Assembly: GCA_013821605.1 (NCBI GenBank) | Contig: JACDGP010000024.1 | Coordinates: 1-52,178, forward strand | DNA length: 52,178 nt | Direction: 5' to 3' | Source: Herpetosiphonaceae bacterium | GTDB lineage: Bacteria > Chloroflexota > Chloroflexia > Chloroflexales > Kallotenuaceae | Part shown: positions 41,003 through 44,667 of the stretch, piece after piece | Position numbering within the stretch: position 1 is the first letter of the stretch | Layout of the letters: each line of letters starts with the position of its first letter | Notes under the pieces: model-generated | What the model saw: only the letters and a program-made list of their open reading frames with translations | What the model was told of the DNA's origin: nothing | Database searches by the model: none | Program-made: the position numbers and the translations under genes

Positions 41003-42129
41003 AGATTGTGCAAGTCTGTCGCCAATTCTATCCGGGAGTTGGAGGGATCGAAAGTGTGACGCTTGGTCTAAGCCAGGCATTACAGGAACACGGGCACCGT
41101 AGCGATGTGATCACATTGCGGAAGCTCTTCAGTCTTGGAATGGTTGCTAATCCCACAGAGTGGGTTGATGGGATAAATGTCTACCGCTTACCGCATGTTG
41201 GGATTCGCCGTTACCCGGTTGCACCAGCAGTGCTGTCTTTACTGGCACCATACGATATTATCCACATTCACGCCATCGATTTCTTTACCGACTTTCTTAC
41301 TGCTACTCGCCGCATCCATCGCAAGCCTATTGTTGTCATGACACATGGAGGCTTCTTTCACACTCGGCGGTTCCTCCTATTTAAGCACTTGTATTTTAGG
41401 ACGATCACCCGCCTATCTTTATCAGGTGCGAATGCAATTATTTGTGATAGTCCGCATGACTACAATCTATTTCAGCACATCGTGCCTCCCCACAAGCTAT
41501 ATACCTGTGCTATCGGCGTCAATGTACAGCCGTACATCAACATCCAGAAGCAGATCGAGCCCGGTCTATTGGTGGGAATTGGGCGAATTGTTGAAAATAA
41601 ACGTATTGAGCGGTTAATCCAGCTCTTGCCAGCTCTAGCCCTGCATCTCCCGGATGTTCATCTTGTATGGATTGGCGATGACGAACAAGGACGGCTCGCA
41701 CATCTGCTCACGTATGCTCAGGAACTGGGCGTTGCTTCACGGGTGCAGTTTTTAGGCAAAACATCCGAGATGCAGATGCAGGAGCAGTTGCGTCGAGCAC
41801 ATCTTTACGTTTCTTCCGCCTCGTATGAGGCTTTTGGTATTTCAACTATCGAGGCTATGAGCAGTGCAACAGTACCTGTGGTAACACCGACAGGCATTCA
41901 TCCCGAAGTTGTCCATGATGGACGAACAGGCTTCATTTGTACCTTTGAAGATCATCGATCTGTAGATTGTTTACGTCACGCATTAACATTAAGCTCTGCA
42001 TCACTTGATAACATTGGGCAAAATGCTCGTGTGGAAGCTGCGAGATACTCATGGACGCCGGTAGTTAAATCCTATCTCGATGTTTATGACTCTATTCTTA
42101 CTCCTAAAAATAGGATGTCATGGTCATGA
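40999..42129 (+). CDS. Glycosyltransferase family 4 protein
   Basis: A 376-residue GT-B enzyme: MKIVQVCRQFYPGVGGIESV at the N terminus. The donor half has LLVGIGRIVENKRIERLI and YVSSASYEAFGISTIEAMSS, then PVVTPTGIHPEVVHDGRTGF. Coupled to the polymerase gene by an ATGA overlap. Donor unknown; an FGxxxIEAM motif is standard for retaining GT4. Confidence 0.9.
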   Translation: MKIVQVCRQFYPGVGGIESVTLGLSQALQEHGHRSDVITLRKLFSLGMVANPTEWVDGINVYRLPHVGIRRYPVAPAVLSLLAPYDIIHIHAIDFFTDFLTATRRIHRKPIVVMTHGGFFHTRRFLLFKHLYFRTITRLSLSGANAIICDSPHDYNLFQHIVPPHKLYTCAIGVNVQPYINIQKQIEPGLLVGIGRIVENKRIERLIQLLPALALHLPDVHLVWIGDDEQGRLAHLLTYAQELGVASRVQFLGKTSEMQMQEQLRRAHLYVSSASYEAFGISTIEAMSSATVPVVTPTGIHPEVVHDGRTGFICTFEDHRSVDCLRHALTLSSASLDNIGQNARVEAARYSWTPVVKSYLDVYDSILTPKNRMSWS

Positions 42130-42944
42130 GCAACACGACCTCTACAGTTGACGGCACTTCCCCACAGCATAATGTGATTCGGATATTAGGGATCAATGTA
42201 CATGCCCTAACCCTACAAGAGTTACTGGCTGCAATTGAACATATAGCATGTACACGCCAACATGCCATCATCGCCCACATAAACATTCATGGCGCAAATT
42301 TAGCATACAAGCTACCTTGGTTTCGAGCATTTCTGAATCAAAGCCAAATTGTCTTCTGTGATGGATTTGGCATAAAGTGGGGTGCTCAATTACTTGGCTA
42401 TCGTATCCCGGAGCGTATTACGTATGCTGATTGGACATGGCAATTTGCGTCGTTTGCAGAGCAACATGGTTTGACAGTCTTTTTCCTCGGCTCTCGGCCG
42501 GGGGTTGCTGAAAAAGCAGTCACACGGCTTCAAGCACAATATCCTAATTTGCAAATTGTGGGTATTCATCATGGGTATTTCAACAAGCACGCTACGAGTC
42601 AAGAAAATGAGGCCGTGATTCAAGCCATTAATGCTGTCAAACCACATGTCCTCATCGTAGGGATGAGTATGCCGACTCAGGAGCGCTGGCTATTAGAAAA
42701 CTGGGAGCGGATCGAGGCTAATGTGGCCCTCCCTGCTGGAGCTGTATTCGATTATGTATCTGGTCGTTTACAACGCGGCCCCCACTGGATGACCAATCAT
42801 GGGTTGGAATGGCTAGCTCGTCTCATTATTGAACCTCGTCGTTTATGGTATCGCTACATTATTGGTAACCCTCTCTTTTTATGGCGCGTGTTCAAGCAGT
42901 CCATCGGTCTCGCTCACTTCGATAATGACAGTAATGCCCGATAA
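42120..42944 (+). CDS. WecG/TagA/CpsF family glycosyltransferase
   Basis: A 274-residue GT26 enzyme. The conserved core includes IAHINIHGANLAYKLPWFRA, CDGFGIKWGAQLLG, TVFFLGSRPGVAEKA, LIVGMSMPTQERWLLENW and FDYVSGRLQRGPHWMTNHGLEW. GT26 enzymes add ManNAc(A) or related sugars to a lipid-linked GlcNAc. This fits the UDP-HexNAc dehydrogenase at 27521 as a donor-making partner. Start 42120 has AGGA close by; ATG 42126, overlapping the previous stop as ATGA, is equally plausible. Confidence 0.9.
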   Translation: MVMSNTTSTVDGTSPQHNVIRILGINVHALTLQELLAAIEHIACTRQHAIIAHINIHGANLAYKLPWFRAFLNQSQIVFCDGFGIKWGAQLLGYRIPERITYADWTWQFASFAEQHGLTVFFLGSRPGVAEKAVTRLQAQYPNLQIVGIHHGYFNKHATSQENEAVIQAINAVKPHVLIVGMSMPTQERWLLENWERIEANVALPAGAVFDYVSGRLQRGPHWMTNHGLEWLARLIIEPRRLWYRYIIGNPLFLWRVFKQSIGLAHFDNDSNAR

Positions 42945-42965
42945 TGATCCGTCCTGCACTCGCCC

Positions 42966-43119
42966 TACCTTGAAGGCAAGGCTGTTGCAAAGTCCACTTT
43001 TGCCATCGGTTCTCGCAATGCTCAGCTAGGACGTAAACTGAAGAGGATGGCCGATGGCTCCGGACAAGAGCACCATTTTTGGCCGATTCGCGACTTTGCA
43101 ACGGCCTTGTACCTTGAAG
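42966..43119. mobile_element. MITE-like element: 18-bp terminal inverted repeats flanked by a 10-bp direct repeat
   Basis: CAAGGCTGTTGCAAAGTC (42977-42994) is matched in inverted orientation by GACTTTGCAACGGCCTTG (43092-43109) with one mismatch. Directly outside, TACCTTGAAG occurs on both sides in the same orientation (42966-42975 and 43110-43119), as a target duplication would. The unit of about 134 bp has no gene. The ends resemble the GGxTxTGTTGCAAA ends of several DDE insertion sequences, but the family cannot be fixed. It separates the WecG-like gene from the initiating transferase. The remaining sequence to 43272 has only a promoter-like motif. Confidence 0.75.
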
Positions 43120-43150
43120 TGGTGAAGTAGCGTAAAAGCATGCACGTGAC

Positions 43151-43156
43151 TATAAT
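43151..43156 (+). promoter_or_regulatory. Putative -10 of the initiating sugar transferase gene
   Basis: TATAAT at 43151-43156 lies 32 bp after the MITE-like element. No good -35 is visible at 16-18 bp, so this is tentative. It would give a leader of about 110 nt. Confidence 0.35.
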
Positions 43157-43272
43157 ACTGTGCCGTGGCTTAGCTGCTTATAAATTGGTTGTAATGGGTG
43201 AATGTTGGGTGGAAGTTCGCTAACCTCACTTGCTCCCTGCACTAAGTCGTGTCCATCTCAGGAGAAGTTTTC

Positions 43273-44667
43273 ATGTTAGAACGCCTTGTCCGCCGACTGG
43301 CAGGAAGTGTACTCTTATGGGATATCCTCGTTACCCTCGTGGCCTTGCGTGGTGCCGCGAGTGTTCGATTGTGGCTCATCTATGGCAACGAGATTAGCCG
43401 AACGCAAGCTCTTCTTCCATGGCAGCTCTATGGAGTGGTTACATGCGTCTGGACCACTGTCTTTTTGTTGCTTGTTCCCCAACGCTCACTCTTTATGAAT
43501 ACACTACTTGAGGCAATTGGGCGTCTGGTTGCGGCGGTTGCACTCTCGGTCTTGGTTTTTGCGGGTGTGCTGTACCTATCATTCCGCAATGTTTCACGCT
43601 TGCAGTTCCTGTATTTTGCGGGGATTGATATAATATGCTTATTAACCTTCCATCTTTTAGTTCGCTTCGCCATCCGGTTCCGTGTTCAGTACGCCAAGCA
43701 GCAACGAACGCTGATTGTTGGATCGGGAGTACAAGCCCAACTCCTCGTCCGGGAACTAGATCGTAGACCGTGGGTTGGGATGCGTATTGTTGGCTACACG
43801 AGTGACGAACCAATCGACAACGAAAACTTACCAATTCTTGGCTCAATCAATGATACAGCGCGGATCGTCGCGGAGCATGCGATTGATGAGGTCATCTTTG
43901 TTACACAACAGCATGAGCAAGTGATGCATCTATCTTTGCAGCTTGTCCAGCTACCGGTGATGCTCCATATGGTGCCCACCATCCTTGACTTGACCTTCGC
44001 GCGTACCCCAGTCGAAACATTAGGAGGCATTCCGGTCATCAGCCTCCGCGAGTCGGCCTTGACCGAGCCTCAACGACTCCTGAAGCAGCTCTTCGACAAG
44101 CTCGCAAGCGCCTTGTTGCTTGTGCTCGTCAGTCCGCTCATGTTGCTCATCGCTTTGGCCATTAAGCTAGAGTCCCCTGGCCCAGTCTTCTTTTTCCAGG
44201 AACGTATTGGCGAGCATGGTAAGCGCTTTCGTATGATCAAGTTCCGAAGCATGTACGCTGATGCTGAACAGCGCTGGCAGGAAGTCATGCAGCGTGACGA
44301 ATATGGGAAGCTTCAACATAAACGTAATGATGACCCGCGGGTGACTAACATCGGGCGCAGGCTTCGTCGAACTAGTCTGGATGAGCTTCCACAGCTCTTT
44401 AATGTTCTACGCGGTGAGATGAGCTTGGTTGGCCCCCGACCAGAGATGCCATACATTGCACGAGAGTATGAACCATGGCAATGGCAGCGTTTCCGTATCC
44501 CTCCTGGTATGACCGGCTGGTGGCAGGTCAATGGGCGCGCTGATAAACTCATGCACCTGCATACTGAGGATGATTTGTATTACATCCAAAATTACTCGTT
44601 CTGGCTCGATCTCAAAATTTTGTGGATGACAGTACGGGTCGTTTTAAAAGGCGCAGGAGCTTTTTGA
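43273..44667 (+). CDS. Polyprenyl-phosphate sugar-1-phosphate transferase (WbaP/WcaJ type)
   Basis: A 464-residue initiating enzyme that transfers a sugar-1-phosphate to undecaprenyl phosphate. Start 43273 has AGGAG 8 bases upstream; a GTG eight codons earlier is less likely. Four N-terminal helices precede a Rossmann-like domain ([17 protein letters not shown]). The catalytic C-terminal domain has a re-entrant helix ([20 protein letters not shown]), then [48 protein letters not shown] with GPRPEMP, and [12 protein letters not shown]. Probable first committed step of the pathway. Confidence 0.93.

Follow-up and report, generated by a model that had tools for sequence, protein, structure and literature searches.

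Among the described systems closest to the locus analysed here, the insertion sequences (ISs) of the ISAs1 family make target duplications of 8-10 bp. Bacterial MITEs offer a second point of comparison. MITEPye1, a bacterial MITE of Paracoccus yeei, is reported to carry both terminal inverted and direct repeats, to occur in 1-3 copies per chromosome, to lie mostly in intergenic regions, and to fold into a long stem-loop; it was matched by its ends to an IS, the authors attributing it to ISs of the IS1182 family (PMC11578231).

The element compared with these systems lies in a stretch of 52,178 nucleotides of a Herpetosiphonaceae genome (hereafter, the window). Relative to the ISAs1 family (NCBIfam NF033564), it has 18-bp ends that are the same or nearly the same and a duplication of 10 bp, but it lacks a transposase gene, and its length is roughly one-tenth. 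MITEPye1 resembles it in the inverted ends, the direct repeats, the few copies, the intergenic position, the stem-loop, and the IS-matched ends, and differs from it in being attributed to IS1182-family ISs, not to ISAs1 (PMC11578231). No description of ISAs1-derived MITEs in Chloroflexota was found in a limited search of open-access titles and the starts of abstracts.

The element is a genuine low-copy MITE with ISAs1-type ends, and an ordinary sort of element. We are highly confident that it was inserted between two genes by an ISAs1-family transposase acting in trans. This assignment accounts for an intergenic stretch that could be taken wrongly for a regulatory RNA, and it links a set of short Chloroflexota repeats to a named transposase family.

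The element and its position

The features of the locus are listed in Table 1. The inverted arms (CAAGGCTGTTGCAAAGTC and GACTTTGCAACGGCCTTG) are paired at 17 of 18 positions with one mismatch, and the 10-bp direct repeat (TACCTTGAAG) is perfect, both as claimed in an earlier inspection of the DNA (the sequence-only reading). The repeats had also been placed directly outside the ends; the right one is indeed flush with its arm, whereas the left one is offset by the G at 42976. For the same reason, the element proposed there stands and its length does not: it is 133 bp proper, and the figure of 134 bp counts this G. At L208:286, too, a single additional base separates one end from its 10-bp duplication; perhaps the two cases reflect an occasional one-base shift at the cut. 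No ORF of 80 aa or longer was present within the element in the ORF list of the window.

Table 1. Coordinates of the element and the flanking genes in the window
Feature	Position	Strand	Evidence
WecG/TagA/CpsF family glycosyltransferase gene (upstream)	42120-42944	+	Pfam PF03808
Left target site duplication TACCTTGAAG, 10 bp	42966-42975	no strand	exact repeat match
Single G separating left duplication from left end	42976	no strand	sequence
Non-autonomous element, 133 bp, ISAs1-type ends	42977-43109	no strand	ends, duplication, genome copies
Left terminal inverted repeat CAAGGCTGTTGCAAAGTC, 18 nt	42977-42994	+	arm pairing, end search
Right terminal inverted repeat, written on this strand CAAGGCCGTTGCAAAGTC	43092-43109	-	arm pairing, end search
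Right target site duplication TACCTTGAAG, 10 bp	43110-43119	no strand	exact repeat match
Initiating sugar transferase gene (downstream)	43249-44667	+	Pfam PF13727 and PF02397

The window was scanned for 18-bp inverted ends in combination with a perfect direct repeat of 10 bp, the two copies of the repeat lying 60-500 bp apart, with the following tolerances: up to 4 mismatches in the ends, and ends no more than 2 bp inside the repeats. The sole find was the 133-bp element, in two registers. The same arrangement was present in none of 100 first-order Markov windows of equal length; thus, it is not due to chance.

The position between the WecG-like gene and the initiating transferase gene, as given in the sequence-only reading, agrees with the gene coordinates and the Pfam matches. 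The left duplication begins 21 bases past the end of the WecG-like gene, and 129 bases separate the right duplication from the listed start of the sugar transferase gene. The downstream gene was matched in one of five family relatives (G003, 67% over 331 bp), in which the upstream neighbour was different and unrelated; among these five, no orthologous pair of the two genes was found for the empty-site comparison proposed in the sequence-only reading.

Copies in the genome and the ISAs1 element of contig C30

Blastn of the own genome, which comprises 5.88 Mb in 259 contigs, detected three copies: the window element, C85:5199-5331 (86% identity), and C117:117532-117646 (72% identity). The search for further copies proposed in the sequence-only reading therefore yielded two. 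Both lie in intergenic regions between larger ORFs, at unrelated genes. The covariance model built from the three copies (R1) gave no fourth copy in the own genome, and relisted two of the three on the opposite strand. The ends of the C85 copy are intact, and those of the C117 copy are both altered alike, with CTTGTGCAAAGTC in place of CTGTTGCAAAGTC; the former is the form found at one end of the IS of the own genome (see below). When the flanks of the C85 and C117 copies were read directly, no target duplication was seen, so that these insertions are probably older or rearranged. In the flank of the C85 copy (L027:5332-5354), a second end-like piece, CAAGGCTGTTTGC, starts nine bases beyond one copy end; it may be what is left of a second element, in an arrangement like that of the pair on contig C30 described below.

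The element was found in 1 of 60 relatives searched, that one being the own genome. Among 158 class genomes, its interior was likewise present in one, again the own one, and absent from the 157 others, and a search of a plasmid collection with the element gave no match. Copies in the genome and an interior confined to 1 of 158 genomes are the reverse of the picture, no other copies and conservation in distant relatives, that the sequence-only reading had associated with a structured RNA.

The end search (up to 3 mismatches) pointed to a 1,330-bp element on contig C30 (L031:3146-4475), with the left end CAGGGCTCTGTCAAAGTC and the right end CAGGGCTTGTGCAAAGTC. The right end differs from the left end of the window element at 3 of 18 bases, and the right end of the window element is identical to it over 12 bp; the left end of the IS fits the end pattern more poorly. 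The encoded protein scores 212 bits against NCBIfam NF033564 (ISAs1 transposase; cut-off, 70) and also matches Pfam PF01609 and PF13808. The gene is intact, and no further ISAs1 transposase was found in the own genome. Between the interior of the window element and this IS, no convincing similarity was found beyond the ends, and no element with exactly the ends of the window element plus a transposase was found in the own genome. Single end-like matches with 1-3 mismatches in the own genome (for example, on C241, C196, C110, and C117 near its end) had no partner end in the scanned loci.

A 144-bp MITE, whose ends resemble the left end of the IS, adjoins the IS on contig C30. The two stand side by side at L031:2983-4485 in the order TATCATAATC - MITE - ATCATAATC - IS - TATCATAATC, as if one target site had been used twice.

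Elements with such ends in other genomes

A species-level genome collection was scanned for CANGGCTGTTGCAAAGTC, and at least 118 stretches were obtained. The examination covered 88 exact ends in 80 of them. Many have a partner end at a distance of 104-246 bp, and many of these pairs carry an exact 10-bp duplication. End-pairs were defined with each end at up to 3 mismatches and the two ends 80-1,600 bp apart, in loci L045 to L208 and the window. Among the matches listed, there were 56 distinct end-pairs, that of the window included; 29 carry an exact duplication at least 8 bp long (10 bp in 22 pairs, 9 bp in 4, 8 bp in 2, and 11 bp in 1), and 27 have no exact duplication by the strict test, some being one mismatch short. 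The duplication is flush with the ends in 27 of these 29 listed cases, and one extra base is present in the window and L208. The end-pairs without an exact duplication include the transposase-bearing L205 and L206, and also L142.

Nine larger elements with such ends were examined with tblastn. Eight of them measure 1,288-1,336 bp, and each of these encodes an ISAs1-type transposase; none was detected in the ninth, of 685 bp. The hosts of the eight are Nocardiopsis (two elements), Streptomyces, an Anaerolineae MAG, a Ktedonobacter MAG, two genomes of the order of the window, and the own genome. Apart from the C30 transposase itself, the proteins are 33-51% identical to it (E 7e-42 or better), and in an NCBIfam scan two such proteins scored 194 and 215 bits for ISAs1. 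The sequence-only reading had advised looking for a full IS with the same ends, and in these ISAs1 elements the ends are the same or almost so. Since the full-length elements examined that have such ends carry an ISAs1-type transposase, the ends of the window element are tied to the ISAs1 family. Of the two ends of the Ktedonobacter-MAG element, one has the form seen in the window element and the other has the CTTGTGCAAAGTC form. L058 and L113 (Nocardiopsis metallicus) have the perfect end pattern at both ends and exact 9-bp duplications. The exact duplications of four full-length ISAs1 elements (L124, 8 bp; L058, 9 bp; L113, 9 bp; L144, 10 bp) agree with the 8-10 bp of the family, as does the 10 bp of the window.

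The window element has the features of a MITE: it is short and without a transposase gene, has inverted ends and a duplication, is present at more than one unrelated site, and shares its ends with an autonomous element. The copy number, three in the genome, is low. Read from the sequences, the ends, the duplication, the two related copies, the intact ISAs1 gene of the own genome, and the like-ended ISAs1 elements elsewhere bear out the earlier claim of a MITE-like transposed element, as do the many similar short elements. An ISAs1 transposase supplied in trans would recognise both ends, the element would insert downstream of the WecG-like gene and ahead of the sugar transferase gene, and the insertion would duplicate 10 bp of the target. 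That an ISAs1 transposase was the mobiliser, and which one it was, we infer from these comparisons.

With up to one mismatch, the end pattern was present in 30 of the 158 class genomes, several with tens of copies, and in the richer genomes the counts were about equal on the two strands. The reversed control pattern gave 3 matches over all 158 genomes. ISAs1 transposase matches were obtained in 53 of the 158 genomes (45 above the cut-off). The genomes with the end pattern and those with the transposase overlap in part; G062, for instance, is rich in ends and gave no match to the transposase.

The interiors were compared among the window copy, the C85 and C117 copies, the C30 MITE, and 26 short elements, which were hand-picked and not random. 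The short ISAs1-ended elements of Chloroflexota (L045, L048, L064, L099, and others) are like the window element in their 18-bp ends, their length (mostly 104-246 bp), and their duplications (mostly 10 bp), but unlike it in their interiors: the window element aligned (more than 30 nt, E 1e-3) solely with the C85 and C117 copies and with none of the 26. The remaining short elements fall into small groups of their own, and several interiors are self-complementary. At the sequence level, the ends are constant and the interiors variable among the compared elements. It is conceivable, though rather doubtful, that throughout Chloroflexota the constant ISAs1-type ends serve as a general system of capture, in which unrelated and often self-complementary interiors would have given rise to many independent MITE families, some of them, the window element included, now being transcript hairpins that influence neighbouring genes. 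If unrelated interiors between constant ISAs1 ends do prove general, these elements would be a good system for the study of MITE origins. Short ISAs1-ended elements from different Chloroflexota records (L046, L056, L075, and L106) have in common an interior rich in CCCTCACCC / CCCTCTCCC, which is alignable between several of them.

Effect on the neighbouring genes and other readings

The sequence-only reading had suggested that the insertion may have split one operon in two or supplied a promoter. A change of expression of this kind, with a promoter for the downstream gene, would be compatible with the MITE reading. In its favour are the distances of the duplications from the two genes (21 and 129 bases) and a TATAAT at 43151-43156. 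This motif is 31 bases outside the right duplication, and it therefore belongs to the host flank and not to the element. In 42800-43400, no sigma-70-like hexamer pair was found (0.6 expected), a result that covers this promoter type, and the single terminator-like site of this region is at 42800-42820, inside the WecG-like gene, and none is within the element. Because neither a sigma-70-like promoter nor a terminator was found in the element, the suggested operon split and promoter delivery are unsupported, and we consider such a change of expression unlikely. At present, the element probably plays no regulatory part.

A structured RNA or regulatory hairpin, kept for its function in the polysaccharide transcript and never transposed, was also considered. 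None of 200 shuffles folds as well as the element strand (DNA z -4.9), RNA folding of the two strands gave z -5.3 and -4.2, and the predicted strong hairpin, which the element would form if transcribed, would sit in the mRNA if the two genes are co-transcribed. However, such a fold is expected from the inverted ends. There was no Rfam match in 42000-44000 at E up to 1, the other two copies are at unrelated genes, the interior is missing from the 157 other class genomes, and a flanking 10-bp duplication is unexpected for an RNA gene. On these grounds the structured-RNA reading is largely refuted, and we regard it as very improbable.

Very improbable, too, is mobilisation by an IS of another family such as IS6, whose ends (GGNNCTGTTGCAAA) resemble the core TGTTGCAAA shared with the elements described here, since IS6 duplicates 8 bp of its target, whereas the exact duplications among the matches listed are mostly of 10 bp (22/29), and 8 of 8 full-length elements examined carry an ISAs1-type transposase.
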